From Coprobacter fastidiosus (GTDB taxonomy: Bacteria > Bacteroidota > Bacteroidia > Bacteroidales > Coprobacteraceae): DNA of 64,000 nucleotides. A program made the translations under genes and the position numbers. The DNA lies in NCBI RefSeq assembly GCF_030296935.1, contig NZ_AP028032.1, positions 992,001-1,056,000 of the forward strand. Reading direction: 5' to 3'. The number at the start of each line of letters is the position of its first letter. The stretch's first letter is position 1. Positions 52,557 to 57,699 of the stretch are shown piece after piece. Under the pieces are notes generated by a model. The model searched no databases, was not told where the DNA came from, and worked only from the letters and a program-made list of their open reading frames with translations.

Positions 52557-53600
52557 ATGGAAGAATTTAAACGTACAGAAATAGCATCTCTTGGTGAATT
52601 TGGACTTATCGACCATTTAACCAAACATGTAGAAGTAAAAAACAACTCTACACTAAAAGGTATCGGGGATGACGCTGCCGTACTCGACTATAAAGAAAAA
52701 CAAGTATTAGTAACAACCGATCTGCTACTTGAAGGTATCCACTTCGACTTAACTTATGTTCCTTTAAAACATTTAGGATATAAGTCAGCCGTTGTTAATT
52801 TTTCAGACATTTATGCAATGAATGGACAGCCGAAACAAATTACTGTTTCCTTAGGCATTTCAAAACGTTTCTCGGTCGAAGATTTAGAACAACTATATGC
52901 CGGTATTCAACTTGCTTGTGATGTTTACCATGTAGATCTGATCGGAGGAGATACTTCCGCTTCTCTCACCGGGTTGGCAATCAGCATTACTTGCATAGGT
53001 GAAGCAAATAAAGAAAAGATTGTATATAGGAATGGAGCTAAAGAAAATGACTTGATCTGCGTAAGTGGAGATCTGGGTGCTGCTTATATGGGGTTACAAT
53101 TGCTCGAACGTGAAAAAAAGGTTTTTGCTGGAGAAAAAAATTTTCAACCTGCTTTTGAAGGTAGAGAGTATCTCCTCGAGAGACAATTAAAACCGGAAGC
53201 TCGTAAAGATATTATCAAAGAACTGGCAAAACGGAATATTGTGCCAACAGCAATGATGGATATTTCGGACGGACTCTCTTCCGAATTACTGCATATATGC
53301 AAACAAAGTCATACCGGATGTCGCATTTATGAGGAACGAATCCCCATAGATTACCAAACGGCTGTTATGGCGGAAGAATTCAATATGAGCCTTATCACTG
53401 CTGCTCTTAATGGTGGAGAGGATTATGAACTGCTATTTACCGTACCGCTGGCTAAACATGATGACATTTCAGCTCTTCCGGGTATTCGTATTATAGGTCA
53501 TATTACAGCTCCTTCCCTTGGGGCTTATATGATTACCAGAGACGGTGCTGAGATAGAATTAAAAGCTCAAGGCTGGAACTCTCTCAATGAAGAAAATTAA
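52557..53600 (+). CDS. thiL: Thiamine-monophosphate kinase
   Basis: 347 residues from the ATG at 52557 (MEEFKRTEIASLGEFGLIDH); the upstream extension runs through a hairpin and is rejected. It phosphorylates TMP to TPP, the last step of the pathway encoded 30 kb away. ATP/Mg blocks: KGIGDDAAVLDYKEKQVLVT, DLLLEGIHFDL, KSAVVNFSDIYAMNGQP, DLIGGDTSAS, MMDISDGLSSEL and LNGGEDYELLFTVP. No TPP riboswitch is visible in front of it. Confidence 0.95.
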   Translation: MEEFKRTEIASLGEFGLIDHLTKHVEVKNNSTLKGIGDDAAVLDYKEKQVLVTTDLLLEGIHFDLTYVPLKHLGYKSAVVNFSDIYAMNGQPKQITVSLGISKRFSVEDLEQLYAGIQLACDVYHVDLIGGDTSASLTGLAISITCIGEANKEKIVYRNGAKENDLICVSGDLGAAYMGLQLLEREKKVFAGEKNFQPAFEGREYLLERQLKPEARKDIIKELAKRNIVPTAMMDISDGLSSELLHICKQSHTGCRIYEERIPIDYQTAVMAEEFNMSLITAALNGGEDYELLFTVPLAKHDDISALPGIRIIGHITAPSLGAYMITRDGAEIELKAQGWNSLNEEN

Positions 53601-53617
53601 AATATCGCCGACAAAAT

Positions 53618-53649
53618 GTTGTGCAAATATAAAATTATTTATATCTTTG
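53618..53649 (+). promoter_or_regulatory. Promoter of tRNA-Phe
   Basis: GTTG (53618-53621, near TTTG) and TATCTTTG (53642-53649) with 20 bp between, directly upstream of the tRNA. Confidence 0.65.
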
Positions 53650-53665
53650 CACACGCAAAAATGAT

Positions 53666-53738
53666 GGTGCCATAGCTCAGTTGGTAGAGCAAAGGACTGA
53701 AAATCCTTGTGTCCCCGGTTCGATTCCTGGTGGCACCA
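53666..53738 (+). tRNA. tRNA-Phe (GAA)
   Basis: 73 nt. Acceptor GGTGCCA pairs with TGGCACC, the anticodon stem-loop is AAGGACTGAAAATCCTT with GAA, and the T-arm is CCGGTTCGATTCC. CCA is not encoded. It appears to be the anchor of the small island downstream. Confidence 0.97.
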
Positions 53739-53762
53739 CTTTTTAAGAAAGAAAAACGATGT

Positions 53763-53795
53763 AAATCCCTGAATTTCAAAGAAGTTCGGGGATTT
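53763..53795 (+). terminator. Terminator after tRNA-Phe
   Basis: AAATCCCTGAA (53763-53773) pairs with TTCGGGGATTT (53785-53795; one G-U pair), followed by a T-run. From 53796 to 53980 no gene is visible. Confidence 0.75.
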
Positions 53796-53989
53796 TTCTT
53801 TTCCAAGAATAGGCAAAATCAGTGGGATTAGAGCAAACTATACGTCCTTATTCAAGGGAGTGGTTTTAAAAGCCCGAAATGTTCCACTTCGAAGTATTTA
53901 CTTCATTCTTTTACAGTCTGTTGCGCTATTTTACATAACAGGGTTCTCGGTTCGATTTCCTAACTTTGTATCATTAAAAATTGAGCCGT

Positions 53990-54256
53990 ATGGAAAGAAA
54001 AAGATTCAGCGTGTTGTTCTTCATCAAGCGTAGCAAACTGTTAAAAAACGGGGAAGCACCCGTGCGTGTGCGTGTCACTTATGACCGCCTATACGTGGAA
54101 CTTCAACTAAAGCGGAGCGTAAAAGTCCCACTTTGGTCGCAGGAAAAAGAGAATGCTGGGCATTCATCCACCCGAATGACGCAGCATTATGCGAAAGTAT
54201 TAGACCAAACGATACTAAGGGATATACAAGCCGTTGAGCAACAACTATCTGTATAA
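53990..54256 (+). pseudogene. Tyrosine integrase gene with its catalytic middle deleted
   Basis: From the ATG at 53990 the protein opens MERKRFSVLFFIKRSKLLKN and runs through the arm-type DNA-binding domain (APVRVRVTYDRLYVELQLKR, then VPLWSQEKE). At residue about 56 it jumps to NAGHSSTRMTQHYAKVLDQT, the C-terminal block with the box II His (in GHSS, usually LGH) and the catalytic Tyr of the same family. Roughly 280 residues, including the core-binding domain and the catalytic Arg-Lys-His/Arg part, are gone, yet the frame is kept. Bacteroidota integrases of this kind use tRNA genes as targets. It cannot recombine by itself. Confidence 0.85.
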
Positions 54257-54285
54257 TAAAAGATTACTTAATACATACTTATAGA

Positions 54286-54343
54286 ACTAATGCTCTCTAA
54301 AATTATGAGGAAAATTTTCCTCATAATTTTAGAGAGCATTAGT
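54286..54343. repeat. 58-bp perfect palindrome upstream of the XRE-peptidase gene
   Basis: Each arm is 29 bp (ACTAATGCTCTCTAAAATTA, then TGAGGAAAA) with no spacer, centred between 54314 and 54315. It separates the integrase remnant from the XRE-ImmA/IrrE module and lies about 10 bp before a second palindrome on the promoter. It could be an operator for a multimeric HTH protein, a hairpin terminator in both directions, or a structure left by a mobile element. Confidence 0.9.
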
Positions 54344-54352
54344 CTATTTCTT

Positions 54353-54381
54353 TATATTTGCAGAAAATTTTCTGCAAATAT
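54353..54381 (+). promoter_or_regulatory. Promoter embedded in a 28-bp perfect palindrome (probable auto-operator)
   Basis: TATATTTG at 54353-54360 fits the -7 consensus. 54354-54381 is an exact palindrome: ATATTTGCAGAAAA and its complement TTTTCTGCAAATAT, no spacer. It covers the -7 element, the likely start site (near 54367) and the first two bases of the ATG at 54380. A protein bound here would block transcription fully. The XRE domain of the gene's own product is the natural candidate. The leader would be only about 13 nt. Confidence 0.7.
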
Positions 54382-55576
54382 GGACAATATAGACATAGAA
54401 CTTAGTAAAGTAATTGATGCAGCTGTTCAATCTTCAATTGATATAGGTCAGGTTGCATCTCTAAAGGATTTATATAAAGAAAAGAAAAATTCACTAAACT
54501 TATCAGATAGACAGATTCAGAAAATTTTAGGAATGGATTCTAAAACTATAAATCCTATATTAAATGGAACTGCTAAACAAATCAATTTCATAAATGTAGT
54601 AAAATTGGCTCATTTTTTAGGTCTGTCTGTTAATGACCTAATAAAAGTTTACGTACCAGAATTAGCTCCTAAACAAATAGGAGAAATCCAACGAGCAAAA
54701 GAAGCAGGATATATCGTTGAAAATTTTGATGTATCTATCCTTATTAAGATGAAGTTTTTTAATTCCAATGCTTCATCTAAAGATATGAGTGATAAAATCA
54801 AACGTTTTTTTGACATTGATAATATTTACAGTTACTCGGAAAATTCTTTGCTTCCCGTTTTTAGTCGCTCTAAAAGAAATTCGAATGATTTAATGCGTAA
54901 TTTTTGGATACAATCTGCGTTCATCCAATTTAAATCTATTGCAAATCCCAATCCATACATAAGAAAAGAATTAGTTGAACTAATACCCAAAATTAGACCA
55001 TACACAAGAGATATAAAAAATGGTCTAATTAGAGTTCTGAAAGCACTATTTCGTACTGGGATCACAGTTATATATCAACCAAGTTTAGAAAAAATACAAG
55101 TTAGAGGAGCTACCATGATAATAAATGATAAACCATGTATTGTACTTTCTAATTTACAAAATAATTATCCTACATTATGGTTTACTCTTTTACATGAACT
55201 ACATCATGTACTTTTTGATTTTGATGAAATCAAAAAACAGACGTATCATATTAGCAATAATGAGGGAGACTTATTTTTAATGAATGAAGAACAAGCAGAT
55301 AATTTTGCTTGCGAATATTTATTAAATGAATCCCGATTAAAATTTGCATCAGGGTATATTACATCACATTATAATATTGAAAAACTAGCTAAAGAATGGG
55401 GAGTACACTCCTCTATTATATATGTAATGTATTGTTATAAAACCAACGAATGGGCTTTTTATAATAAATATATACCTAAAATGAATGAAGCCTTAGAGCT
55501 TATAAATACTCACCCATTTGAAAAAGAAACATTAATGGAATCAGTACAACAAATCAAAGAATTTTTATACAATTAA
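54380..55576 (+). CDS. XRE-family DNA-binding / ImmA-IrrE metallopeptidase fusion protein
   Basis: 398 residues from the ATG at 54380 (MDNIDIELSKVIDAAVQSSI). The frame opens 30 codons earlier, but only by reading through palindromes. Residues about 30-85 form an XRE-type helix-turn-helix (NLSDRQIQKILGMDSKTINP, then LAHFLGLSVNDLIKVY). The C-terminal half is a COG2856 zinc peptidase: HELHH at 272-276 in LLHELHHVLFDF and a downstream Glu in NEEQADNFACEYLLNES. Such proteins cut or sense a partner repressor (ImmA/ImmR) or act in toxin-antitoxin-like defence (for example RosmerTA). It is followed 2 bp later by an unknown gene. The region is much richer in A+T than its neighbours, in keeping with transfer. 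Confidence 0.88.
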   Translation: MDNIDIELSKVIDAAVQSSIDIGQVASLKDLYKEKKNSLNLSDRQIQKILGMDSKTINPILNGTAKQINFINVVKLAHFLGLSVNDLIKVYVPELAPKQIGEIQRAKEAGYIVENFDVSILIKMKFFNSNASSKDMSDKIKRFFDIDNIYSYSENSLLPVFSRSKRNSNDLMRNFWIQSAFIQFKSIANPNPYIRKELVELIPKIRPYTRDIKNGLIRVLKALFRTGITVIYQPSLEKIQVRGATMIINDKPCIVLSNLQNNYPTLWFTLLHELHHVLFDFDEIKKQTYHISNNEGDLFLMNEEQADNFACEYLLNESRLKFASGYITSHYNIEKLAKEWGVHSSIIYVMYCYKTNEWAFYNKYIPKMNEALELINTHPFEKETLMESVQQIKEFLYN

Positions 55577-55578
55577 TT

Positions 55579-56088
55579 ATGGAAGAAAAAAAGAAAAAAA
55601 AATCTCAGGAGGAATTAGAAGAACTCCAAAAAAAGCAAGAACAAGATTTAGAACGTACAGCAATTTTAATGAAAGCTGATGAAATCAAAGAAGAAACATT
55701 TGATTTTGATGTAAACGGTCAAATCGAACTCAAAAATGAGTTGGCAGATATGGTTTTAGAACAAATCGATGACCCTGAAGCTAAATATAATTTATATTAT
55801 AATGTTGTCAATTGTTTATTAAGAAAATATCTTCCAAAAGGCGATACATATAAAGATGCAAGAGATTTGATTTATGAAGAAAAGAATACATTTTTAACTC
55901 GTGGACACAGAAAAGATGCACAAGGTATAAGAGGAGCAGACGGAAGAATGTCCTATATTTCAGATATAAATGAGCTTGTTAACATTATCACTGAATGGAT
56001 TTCAAACAAAGGAACAATGTTTGATTTATATACTAAAATTAGGGATTTGAATATTTCTAAAGGATATGGTGCTTCACAGTCAAAATAA
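55579..56088 (+). CDS. Unknown 169-aa protein, partner of the XRE-peptidase
   Basis: Begins 2 bp after the stop of the XRE-peptidase gene, so translation is coupled. Residues 1-35 are almost only Lys, Glu, Gln and Leu (EEKKKKKSQEELEELQKKQE), a charged coiled-coil-like tail. The folded part (about 45-165) has FDFDVNGQIELKNELADMVL, YYNVVNCLLRKYLPKG, GHRKDAQGIRGADGRMSYIS and IITEWISNKG. No family is recognised and no signal or membrane segment is seen. It may be the substrate, antitoxin or effector of the peptidase. The evidence is the operon arrangement only. Confidence 0.75.
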   Translation: MEEKKKKKSQEELEELQKKQEQDLERTAILMKADEIKEETFDFDVNGQIELKNELADMVLEQIDDPEAKYNLYYNVVNCLLRKYLPKGDTYKDARDLIYEEKNTFLTRGHRKDAQGIRGADGRMSYISDINELVNIITEWISNKGTMFDLYTKIRDLNISKGYGASQSK

Positions 56089-56245
56089 AAAGAATAGAAC
56101 TATATATATACTCATAATCTCTATTTTAGCCTTTCTTTGTTTACACAGTTGCACTGTGGATATTGACCCTAAAATAGCTAATACAGCCTTTGGACTTACA
56201 ACTATAAAAACGAGAATATATAATAATGATTTTAAGTTTATGTAG
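56066..56245 (+). CDS. Small (59 aa) membrane or lipoprotein ORF overlapping the unknown gene
   Basis: ATG at 56066, preceded by AAAGGAT. The stop is at 56243-56245. MVLHSQNKKNRTIYILIISI continues through a helix to LAFLCLHSC, a possible lipobox with Cys29, then TVDIDPKIANTAFGL. It overlaps the end of the 169-aa gene by 23 bp in another frame. Basic N-terminus, hydrophobic core and Cys look like a real signal peptide. No family recognised. Confidence 0.5.
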   Translation: MVLHSQNKKNRTIYILIISILAFLCLHSCTVDIDPKIANTAFGLTTIKTRIYNNDFKFM

Positions 56246-56339
56246 TGGCATCTTCTGCATTATTGGAGGTATTATACTTACCATTTTAAGGTTTACATCA
56301 ATTGGATTATTGAAGGAACAGATTTTACGTCAAAATTAA
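56226..56339 (+). CDS. Very small (37 aa) hydrophobic peptide ORF overlapping the previous one
   Basis: ATG at 56226, stop TAA at 56337-56339. The peptide is MILSLCSGIFCIIGGIILTI, then LRFTSIGLLKEQILRQN: one transmembrane helix with a basic/polar tail. It overlaps the 59-aa ORF by 20 bp, again in a different frame, giving a chain of four abutting or overlapping ORFs. It resembles small membrane toxins or holin-like peptides only in shape. It ends exactly where the IS3-type remnant begins, so it could be truncated. Confidence 0.4.
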   Translation: MILSLCSGIFCIIGGIILTILRFTSIGLLKEQILRQN

Positions 56340-56450
56340 TAAATGCTTCTCCTTGTTTTACACGGTTAACAATAATGAGCCTCTGTTCGTAACTGTACTT
56401 CATAAAAAACACCCCAAAAGTTTTGAGTCTAACTTTTGGGGTGCACTTCA
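56335..56450 (-). mobile_element. End of an IS3-type insertion sequence (remnant)
   Basis: On the minus strand the terminal part shows a perfect 13-bp inverted pair CACCCCAAAAGTT (56410-56422) and AACTTTTGGGGTG (56431-56443), the layout seen at the start of many Bacteroidota IS3/IS150-like elements. Next is an ATG (56403-56401) with MKYSYEQRLIIVNRVKQGEA, the typical first residues of OrfA with its HTH. The similarity stops after about 23 residues, near 56335, where island sequence takes over. Everything downstream of the element is lost. 56451-56625 has no gene. Confidence 0.7.
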
Positions 56451-56625
56451 CTGCGAGAGAGCTCCTTTTATTAAATTTCTTCAAAAGATTCTGCAACACC
56501 CTCTAAATAAATTTTCAAAACAATAGAAATACAATAAAACTCAAAATATTTTATCTTTATTTTTTTCAATTTTCCCAAAACATATCATCAAAATAACTGT
56601 TTTAATATATAAACACATAAGAATT

Positions 56626-57699
56626 ATGAAAATACTTTATTTAACTTTCGCATTATTCTTCAGCGGGCTTTCATCTGCTCTTGCCTGTACAGGAATTTCC
56701 TTTTTTGCCAAAGACGGTGGATATGTACAAGCCCGAACTATCGAGTGGGGAGATAGTTTCCTACCAAGTGAATATGTAATTATACCCCGTAATCTAAATC
56801 AGACATCATATACTCCAACGGGTATAAACGGGTTAAAATTTAAATCCAAATATGGCGTAGTCGGACTTGCAATCATCCAAAAAGAATTTATTGCCGAAGG
56901 TCTAAATGAAGCCGGCTTATCAGCCGGACTATTTTATTTCCCTCATTACGGAAAGTATCCAGAATATGACCAGAAACAAAACAGCCGTACATTATCCGAT
57001 TTACAATTCGTCTCATGGATATTATCCAATTTTTCGACTATCGATGAAGTAAAAAAAGCCATTGAACAAGTACGGATCGTTTCCTTAGATAAAGAGGGGG
57101 CATCTTCAACTGTACATTGGCGTATAGGAGAAGCTTCCGGCAGACAAGTCGTGCTTGAATTTGAAAACGGGAAACCTTGTTTTTACGAAAACCAAGTAGG
57201 TGTATTGACAAACTCCCCTGACTTTAAATGGCAGGTTACCAATCTGAATAATTACGTCAACCTTTTCCCTGGCAATGCTCCTGTTCAAAAGATCGGAAAT
57301 GTCACGATATTTCCGTTCGGTGCGGGCTCCGGTTTCTTGGGTATACCTGGAGACATTACCCCTCCTTCCCGTTTCGTCAGGATAGCCTTTTACAAAGCTA
57401 CAGCTCCCCAGCAAAATACATCAGACGAAACGATACTACAATGTTTTCACATCCTTAATAACTTCGATATTCCTATCGGTGTTGAATTTGCACCAGGAAA
57501 AGCTCCGAATATTCCCAGTGCAACACAATGGACTTCCGCCATCGACCTAACACAAAAGAAAGTATATTACAAAACCGCTTACAATAACAATATTCGCTGT
57601 ATCGATCTTAAAGATATAAATTTCAATACAATTTCTTACCAATCACATCCATTAGACCAAACACTTAAACAGCCTATCGAAAATCTACAGTTCAAATAA
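56626..57699 (+). CDS. Choloylglycine hydrolase / penicillin V acylase family enzyme
   Basis: 357 residues. The signal peptide ends SSALA and the mature protein would start with Cys21 (CTGISFFAKDGG), the N-terminal nucleophile of this Ntn-hydrolase family. The conserved Arg is in YVQARTIEWGDSF. EGLNEAGLSAGLFYF, VGVLTNSPDFKWQV (with the oxyanion Asn region) and PGDITPPSRFVRIAF (the late Arg) also fit. In Bacteroidales such periplasmic enzymes include bile salt hydrolases of the Gram-negative cluster and N-acyl amide hydrolases, so the substrate is uncertain. Monocistronic. Confidence 0.88.
   Translation: MKILYLTFALFFSGLSSALACTGISFFAKDGGYVQARTIEWGDSFLPSEYVIIPRNLNQTSYTPTGINGLKFKSKYGVVGLAIIQKEFIAEGLNEAGLSAGLFYFPHYGKYPEYDQKQNSRTLSDLQFVSWILSNFSTIDEVKKAIEQVRIVSLDKEGASSTVHWRIGEASGRQVVLEFENGKPCFYENQVGVLTNSPDFKWQVTNLNNYVNLFPGNAPVQKIGNVTIFPFGAGSGFLGIPGDITPPSRFVRIAFYKATAPQQNTSDETILQCFHILNNFDIPIGVEFAPGKAPNIPSATQWTSAIDLTQKKVYYKTAYNNNIRCIDLKDINFNTISYQSHPLDQTLKQPIENLQFK

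Follow-up and report, generated by a model that had tools for sequence, protein, structure and literature searches.

A two-gene unit, in which a gene for an XRE HTH protein fused to an M78 zinc peptidase is followed by a gene for a dedicated 169-residue partner protein or, in some relatives, for an alternative P63C-type partner, is the conserved element of a locus in a 64,000-nucleotide stretch of Coprobacter fastidiosus DNA (the window; Table 1). The original prediction had described a module of four open reading frames (ORFs) that included a small membrane effector. Its direct observations were all re-found in the sequence: the ORF order, the HELHH motif, the 2-bp gap between the stop of the peptidase gene (55576) and the start of the partner gene (55579), the 23-bp and 20-bp overlaps that follow, and the A/T-rich DNA (GC 0.283 over 55001–56000). 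The four-gene module is rejected; the conserved unit is the peptidase and its partner. The pair is small, mobile and found in Bacteroidota, and it looks like an unrecognised variant of toxin–antitoxin or phage-defence systems. A limited literature search found no paper on this pair.

Table 1 Features of the locus in the window (positions count from the first nucleotide of the window)
Feature	Position	Strand	Remarks
tRNA-Phe gene	53666..53739	+	Found by ARAGORN and Rfam; element remnant adjoins
Tyrosine-recombinase remnant	53990..54256	+	N-terminal arm-binding part joined to an integrase's last 32 residues
58-bp perfect palindrome	54286..54343		30 bp past the integrase stop; distal repressor-type site at its centre
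Distal palindromic site TGAGGAAAATTTTCCTCA	54306..54323		From the site scan; centre of the 58-bp palindrome
Putative promoter box TATATTTG	54353..54360	+	Matches TAnnTTTG
Proximal palindromic site TGCAGAAAATTTTCTGCA	54359..54376		53 bp from the distal site
XRE-M78 peptidase gene	54380..55576	+	398 aa, intact
Partner gene	55579..56088	+	169 aa, intact
Broken third gene	56066..56339	+	Small membrane protein remnant, outside the conserved module

The first protein carries an XRE HTH at approximately residues 28–91, followed by a helical middle and then the M78 zinc peptidase. A longer reading frame from 54290 is possible; relatives align from the ATG at 54380, and this should be the start. Peptidase_M78 of Pfam matched over its cut-off (E 5e-7), and HTH_3 (E 1e-4) and HTH_19 (E 2e-5) fell 0.3 and 5 bits under theirs. 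The HELHH motif occupies residues 272–276 (55193–55207), and H272, E273, H276 and E303 are invariant in all 23 aligned rows; from the M78 pattern, E303 is presumably the third zinc ligand. The HExxH motif and a candidate third ligand, as expected of an active M78 (ImmA/IrrE) peptidase, are thus both present. Both genes of the pair are under purifying selection, with dN/dS of 0.10–0.17 for the peptidase and 0.19–0.30 for the partner in comparisons limited to three relatives (L007, L009 and L010), as synonymous sites are saturated in more distant pairs. Among defence models, PADLOC PD-Lambda-2_B (PDLC03982) matched residues 39–366 (E 2.7e-22), and six RmrA models matched parts of the protein more weakly (best E 2e-7). 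Judged by these profiles, the nearest named relative is PD-lambda-2B, followed by RmrA, which bears out the predicted kinship with toxin–antitoxin-like defence proteins. In the PDB, the peptidase half was matched best by CapP (E 0.023) and IrrE (E 0.065), neither significant alone; structure alignment gave CapP a Z of 6.7 (154 residues, 5.4 Å) and IrrE a Z of 6.1 (140 residues, 6.6 Å).

The 169-residue partner is composed of a charged N-terminal helix and a helical core. No family of Pfam or NCBIfam matched it over the cut-off, nor did any toxin family or, at E up to 1, any PADLOC model, the PD-lambda-2 models included; the best PHROGs match had an E value of 0.15 (phrog_9072). We set aside the weak matches to Ribosomal_L50 (E 0.0085), gltX (E 0.0028) and phrog_9072 as below cut-offs or near chance. 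Likewise, no known fold could be assigned: the best Foldseek match had an E value of 0.37, and the best VIA-align score, Z 5.7, is at a level common for unrelated helical proteins. The model of the partner is of moderate quality (pLDDT 74), with low confidence in its first third, so the lack of a significant fold match is not evidence of a new fold. tblastn searches of a phage collection with the peptidase and with the partner gave no match at E 1e-5.

Consistent with the predicted partnership, we found that the two genes are kept together when searched from either side. Starting from the partner, a peptidase gene lay upstream in 20 of 22 genome-contig loci (19 complete and one, L018, cut by a contig end); the two loci without a visible peptidase were L026, at a contig end, and L024, which holds a 5'-truncated partner remnant only. 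In a phylum-wide draw of 395 genomes, the partner occurred in 12 genomes at 13 places, with the peptidase upstream at 11 of them (one cut) and the remaining two at contig ends. The partner thus does not occur mostly without the peptidase, which the original prediction had named as grounds for abandoning it. Starting from the peptidase, a profile search at E <= 1e-25 in four genome draws gave matches in 12 of 395 genomes (12 loci), 12 of 150 (13 loci), 9 of 197 and 3 of 201; three loci recurred, so that 34 distinct ones remained, near-copies among them. Directly downstream of the peptidase stood a protein of the 169-residue family in 28 of the 34 and a P63C-type protein in the other six, a census restricted to one peptidase clade because the profile was built from partner-bearing loci. 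Twenty-three of the 34 were new relative to the partner search (17 with the 169-family, 6 with P63C), and 11 were already known through the partner (ten from the 395-genome draw, plus L098, which is the same place as L011). In a plasmid search, in which 11 of 26 records were examined, Hymenobacter plasmids added four more P63C cases and one remote 169-family case. L044, a more distant plasmid gene that matched the peptidase profile at E 3.5e-27, has neither partner, and L006 contained neither a peptidase nor a partner gene. These counts describe two adjacent, co-oriented genes kept together, as in type II toxin–antitoxin systems.

The two kinds of partner do not appear to be homologous. The 169-residue protein had no Pfam P63C match, and hhalign comparison of profiles with 4 and then 10 P63C rows gave no signal (probability 0.15%, against 0.18% for a reversed control). 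In a tree of 49 peptidases, which omitted L043 (split frame), the nine P63C-paired proteins formed one clade with support of 100/100, so a single partner exchange is sufficient to explain them; its direction is unsure because the root is uncertain, the sole outgroup being L044 on a very long branch.

The two small ORFs tell a different story from the one predicted. The 59-aa ORF (56066–56245) overlaps the partner gene by 23 bp, and the 37-aa ORF (56226–56339) overlaps the 59-aa ORF by 20 bp; they had been proposed as members of a four-gene operon with a small membrane effector. In L007 (Bacteroides acidifaciens), L008 (Phocaeicola sartorii) and L010, the homologous DNA is one 120-codon ORF after the partner, which by our reading would encode a protein with a lipoprotein-like start and further hydrophobic stretches. 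The window copy has a frameshift, a short gap, no remaining copy of the likely start codon, and a 3' end replaced by foreign sequence; we read 56293–56499 as the end of an IS3-like transposase. The copy in L009 has an internal deletion. The four overlapping ORFs of the window and the intact membrane-protein ORF behind the pair in three relatives are what a co-transcribed four-gene system would look like. Against it, tblastn with both window ORFs matched only the window copy and L007–L010 among loci L001–L036, and inspection by eye of the ORF lists up to L059 found no other copy of the third gene. The intact third protein matched five of 295 genomes of the order, the window genome among them; the best other match was moderate (E 3e-7) and lay in an unrelated context away from the pair, and the remaining three were weaker, one of them in a genome whose remote copy of the pair sits on a different contig. 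The small ORFs are thus fragments of one broken gene found only in the closest relatives; a lack of conservation at the protein level was the other ground on which the original prediction was to be abandoned, and for these two ORFs it applies. The supposed membrane effector is a remnant outside the pair. Chance ORFs of this size are common: 79 ORFs of at least 35 aa were listed as overlapping a 14-kb stretch. A four-gene system with a small membrane effector is thus very improbable. In L019, another, dissimilar membrane ORF lies 438 bp farther on.

The original prediction also called the module self-regulated, and the operon is indeed preceded by paired repressor-type sites, putative operators of the kind that autorepression would require. 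In the window, the proximal site lies inside a 28-bp perfect palindrome (54354–54381) that extends into the start codon. The putative promoter box fits TAnnTTTG, which we take to be the Bacteroidota-type −7 box consensus. A first scan for two similar 18-bp palindromic sites 30–80 bp apart gave a best spacing of 52 or 53 bp in 15 of 22 loci. The motif differs between groups of loci (TGAGGAAAATTTTCCTCA, TTAGGTAAATTTACCTAA, TTATGTAAATTTACATAA and others), and the distance is constant. Among 169-family loci scanned after the spacing idea had formed, 52–53 bp was found in 5 of 8 (L053–L057, with p 0.066 for L055; not in L034, L036 and L039) and in 7 of the 14 within the last loci, L078–L099. Six P63C loci in the second scan included four at 63 or 64 bp (two with p > 0.1; L040 and L043 had other spacings), and the last four P63C loci gave 64, 65, 65 and 65 bp, against an expected 63–64 bp; the P63C range was broadened from 63–64 to 63–65 bp once these data had been seen.

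In the full count, which was limited to upstream regions less than 85% alike to an earlier locus over the last 120 bases, 23 of 39 169-family loci had the 52–53-bp spacing (20 of 21 among those with p <= 0.02), and 8 of 10 P63C loci had 63–65 bp (5 of 10 at 63–64 bp; 4 of 4 among those with p <= 0.02). The corresponding shuffle rates were 3.5% for 52–53 bp and 3.0% for 63–64 bp. As a control with real DNA, we scanned 113 regions lying in front of other genes, taken from the window and from 21 loci, and found four pairs at 52–53 bp and four at 63–65 bp; a pair score of at least 28 was reached by none of these 113, compared with 18 of 39 169-family and 4 of 10 P63C loci. Also left out of the full count were loci without enough of the peptidase, in addition L008, L037, L047, L060 and L065, and L045 (more distant, with no partner); L044 was scanned and, having no partner, is in neither set. 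Sixteen of the 39 169-family loci had other spacings (L005, L015, L027, L028, L032–L034, L036, L039, L083, L093–L097 and L099), including one whole clade (L005, L027, L028, L032 and L099), although a weaker true pair can be masked because the scan gives a single best pair per region (30–90 bp). L015 had a clear distal site only, and L097 had a significant pair at 54 bp. TAnnTTTG occurred downstream of the distal site and no farther than the proximal one in 23 of the 31 loci with the spacing of their class, compared with 7.9% in letter shuffles, and in 18 of those 23 it lay 15–19 bp before the proximal centre. These palindromes, conserved in most loci as a pair that flanks the promoter, are candidate autoregulatory operators.

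At 10.5 bp per turn, 52–53 bp amounts to approximately five turns and 63–65 bp to approximately six, which would place both sites on one face of the DNA. One possible explanation for the two distances is that the partner takes part in the repressor complex, where it would bridge two XRE-M78 dimers across the promoter and set the operator distance, such that the exchange of partner moved the operators by one turn. We consider this possible, though on balance somewhat unlikely. Spacing and partner may have changed together just once, because the P63C set is one clade; on the tree, the spacing label requires two changes, one of which comes from the weak pair of L099. If bridging is true, the pair would be a toxin–antitoxin variant whose effector has a second role, that of DNA-spacing corepressor for the peptidase sensor. 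The spacing, five or six turns according to the partner, replaces the vague term 'self-regulated' with a precise DNA-bridging prediction, and it offers a signature for finding further members.

We compared the pair with known systems that couple M78 peptidases to XRE-type regulators. PD-lambda-2 and RosmerTA are tested phage-defence systems (PMC9519451 and PMC10440598, respectively). Like the window pair, PD-lambda-2 has an Xre HTH fused to an ImmA/IrrE peptidase with a further gene downstream (PMC9519451). However, the E. coli system has three genes rather than two, a HigB-like gene upstream, where the window has an integrase remnant and then the promoter region, and a third gene of the P4 beta family. 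The window partner is not a beta protein: it had no Pfam Beta_protein match, and comparing its profile with a beta protein from Rhizobium, which occurs next to a related peptidase gene, gave a probability of 0.08%. We therefore rejected membership in PD-lambda-2, as both the HigB-like and the beta components are missing. RosmerTA (RmrA/RmrT) likewise combines an M78 peptidase, often with an HTH, with a variable partner, and PMC10440598 describes the RmrT proteins as different toxins. The window pair differs in its weaker and partial RmrA match, in the lack of a PADLOC match for its partner, and in that the conserved pair has no transmembrane effector. Makarova et al. 2009 (PMC2701414) predicted that toxin–antitoxin-like operons contain a protease whose target is an Xre repressor, and the COG2856–Xre loci treated there resemble the pair in their fused protease–Xre protein, operon structure and presence on mobile elements; the toxin partners named in that paper for such fusions are mostly PIN and RelE, whereas here the partner is of an unknown-type family or P63C. 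The window also resembles ImmA/ImmR (ICEBs1), IrrE/DdrO and CapP/CapH, in all of which an M78 peptidase is coupled with an XRE-type repressor. In those systems the peptidase and the cleaved repressor are separate proteins, whereas here peptidase and HTH are fused and the partner is a further kind of protein. The comparison defines a Bacteroidota pair in which a family-less second protein stands beside a peptidase related to tested phage-defence proteins.

We propose that the pair is a self-repressed, toxin–antitoxin-like defence module in which XRE-M78 would serve as repressor and sensor and the partner as an exchangeable effector, a reading to which we give roughly an even chance. DNA binding, cooperativity, a trigger, cleavage, toxicity, the effector role and defence are what we infer for this pair. 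XRE-M78 would keep expression of the operon low by binding both palindromic operators, which are set around the promoter at a distance of five turns and would face the same side of the DNA; it would double as a sensor and as an antitoxin-like keeper of the partner. Infection or DNA damage might be the trigger, upon which the zinc peptidase would cut its own HTH protein or a bound protein. Repression and restraint would then end, and the partner would act as effector. The effector role is suggested for the partner because the sensor-repressor stays constant while its partner can be of either type.

The polarity could also be reversed, with XRE-M78 as the toxic component and the partner as an antitoxin or inhibitor that infection would release or destroy. 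The partner is a small protein, and confidence in its model is low over the first third; antitoxins often have disordered parts. According to PMC9519451, PD-lambda-2B, the closest named relative, is toxic alone and is rescued by its neighbour PD-lambda-2A, and because of this toxicity we retain the reversed arrangement. However, the partner resembles neither the PD-lambda-2 models nor a beta protein in the searches above, and the finding of two unrelated partners for one constant regulator fits an antitoxin that stays the same while its toxins are exchanged, an arrangement that PMC10440598 describes for RosmerTA. We judge reversed polarity to be unlikely.

Alternatively, the pair might be a mobile-element switch like ICEBs1 ImmR/ImmA, in which XRE-M78 would repress and then free element genes such as an integrase and the partner would modulate this. 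M78 peptidases such as ImmA act as antirepressors (PMC2701414 and PMC10440598), and in the window, L007, L009 and L013 an integrase gene or what is left of one immediately precedes the pair. In the window, the recombinase remnant matches Arm-DNA-bind_5 of Pfam (E 2.5e-9), and its residues 57–88 are 94% identical to the C terminus of the L007 integrase ORF. The integrase and the third gene are both remnants while the pair is open, which indicates that the element around the pair decayed and the pair was kept. In addition, inspection by eye showed no adjoining integrase in many other loci and little that their surroundings share, and none of the 113 other genes scanned in the window and in 21 loci was preceded by a comparably strong site pair. 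An element switch is less likely because the pair occurs in unrelated contexts and outlasts element decay, and we regard it as quite unlikely. A search of the window for a complete attachment-site repeat of the 3' end of tRNA-Phe gave only a 12-base match at 53949, and in an Rfam search of 53500–56800 the tRNA alone reached threshold.

The distal site of the window lies within a long palindrome, and arms of 24–29 bp surround this site in the window, L007, L009, L010 and L013. In the four of these loci in which the integrase was seen (the window, L007, L009 and L013), the long palindrome lies 30–34 bp past the integrase stop. Its outer arms vary among the five loci, but in 11 of 29 pairs both members have changed; none of 500 shuffles reached as high a count, and sliding the pairing partner by 1–3 columns gave 0–3. 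The long palindrome may serve to terminate transcription of the integrase gene, or template switching may copy one arm onto the other.

The copies of the pair in the window, L007, L008, L009 and L010 are 93–98% identical at the protein level. The named hosts of these near-identical copies fall in two genera, and the window genome comes from a small family, represented in the set by five genomes; such identity across two genera and the window family suggests that the pair was recently transferred between hosts. Genomic contexts vary from locus to locus, and by our reading L011, L029 and L032 are prophage-like. Neighbours were read in 23 loci with the 169-family (L002, L005, L007, L008, L009 and L033 among them), and ten proteins picked by eye were tested against profiles. 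Profile-supported defence genes lay within 6 kb of the pair in 6 of these 23 loci, a raw count with no background rate that includes two near relatives (L021 and L023). One tested neighbour, the tenth, in L016, matched no Pfam family. Among the supported neighbours, L016 has Lamassu LmuB, L023 and L028 have AbiEi/AbiEii, L021 has a type III restriction subunit, L002 has both an EcoRI-type methylase and a GmrSD/HNH protein, and L017 has a type IIG enzyme. In L033, an annotated Xre/RES pair lies nearby.

In the window, the XRE-M78 zinc peptidase gene and its 169-aa partner lie after a tRNA-Phe gene and, behind it, an integrase that has lost a large internal part, a scar left by the loss of an integrated element. 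A full attachment-site repeat was not found in the window. A perfect palindrome of 58 bp follows, upstream of the peptidase gene, and it has a counterpart there in three close relatives (L007, from Bacteroides acidifaciens, L009 and L010) and at a further related locus, L013. In the window, L007, L009 and L013 the distance from the integrase stop codon is 30–34 bp. Among closely related loci the palindrome arms co-vary, with both sides changed in 11 of 29 pairs. This palindrome may be a terminator, may form a cruciform or may have arms that were copied by template switching.

On the far side of the pair, the broken third gene has had its 3′ end replaced by sequence that reads like the start of an IS3-type transposase, next to an inverted repeat of 13 bp. 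The module is also adjoined by a gene whose product reads like a secreted member of the choloylglycine (bile salt) hydrolase family.

Coordinates of features around the pair
Feature	Locus	Position	Strand
tRNA-Phe, deleted integrase	window	53666-54256	
Palindrome	window	54286-54343	
Putative IS3-type transposase, start	window	56293-56499	minus
Putative choloylglycine hydrolase-family protein	window	56626-57699	
Large gene	L015	2982-4676	minus
Large gene	L016	2960-4678	minus

Elsewhere, large genes start just before the pair on the opposite strand at L015 and L016, the latter encoding a product without a Pfam family, and an annotated DUF6035 gene lies upstream on the opposite strand at L033. Two copies of the module are on contigs assigned to other taxa: L014 (54–64% identity), in an Oscillospiraceae MAG, and L010 (94–97% identity), in an alphaproteobacterial MAG, which looks like a binning error.

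Among more distant XRE-M78 genes, that of Rhizobium (L046) is followed by a gene of the P4 beta family and has no annotated HigB-like gene before it, and that of Pseudarthrobacter (L044) has neither partner. Partner exchange in the superfamily thus extends beyond the two types counted, the 169-aa family and the P63C-type protein.
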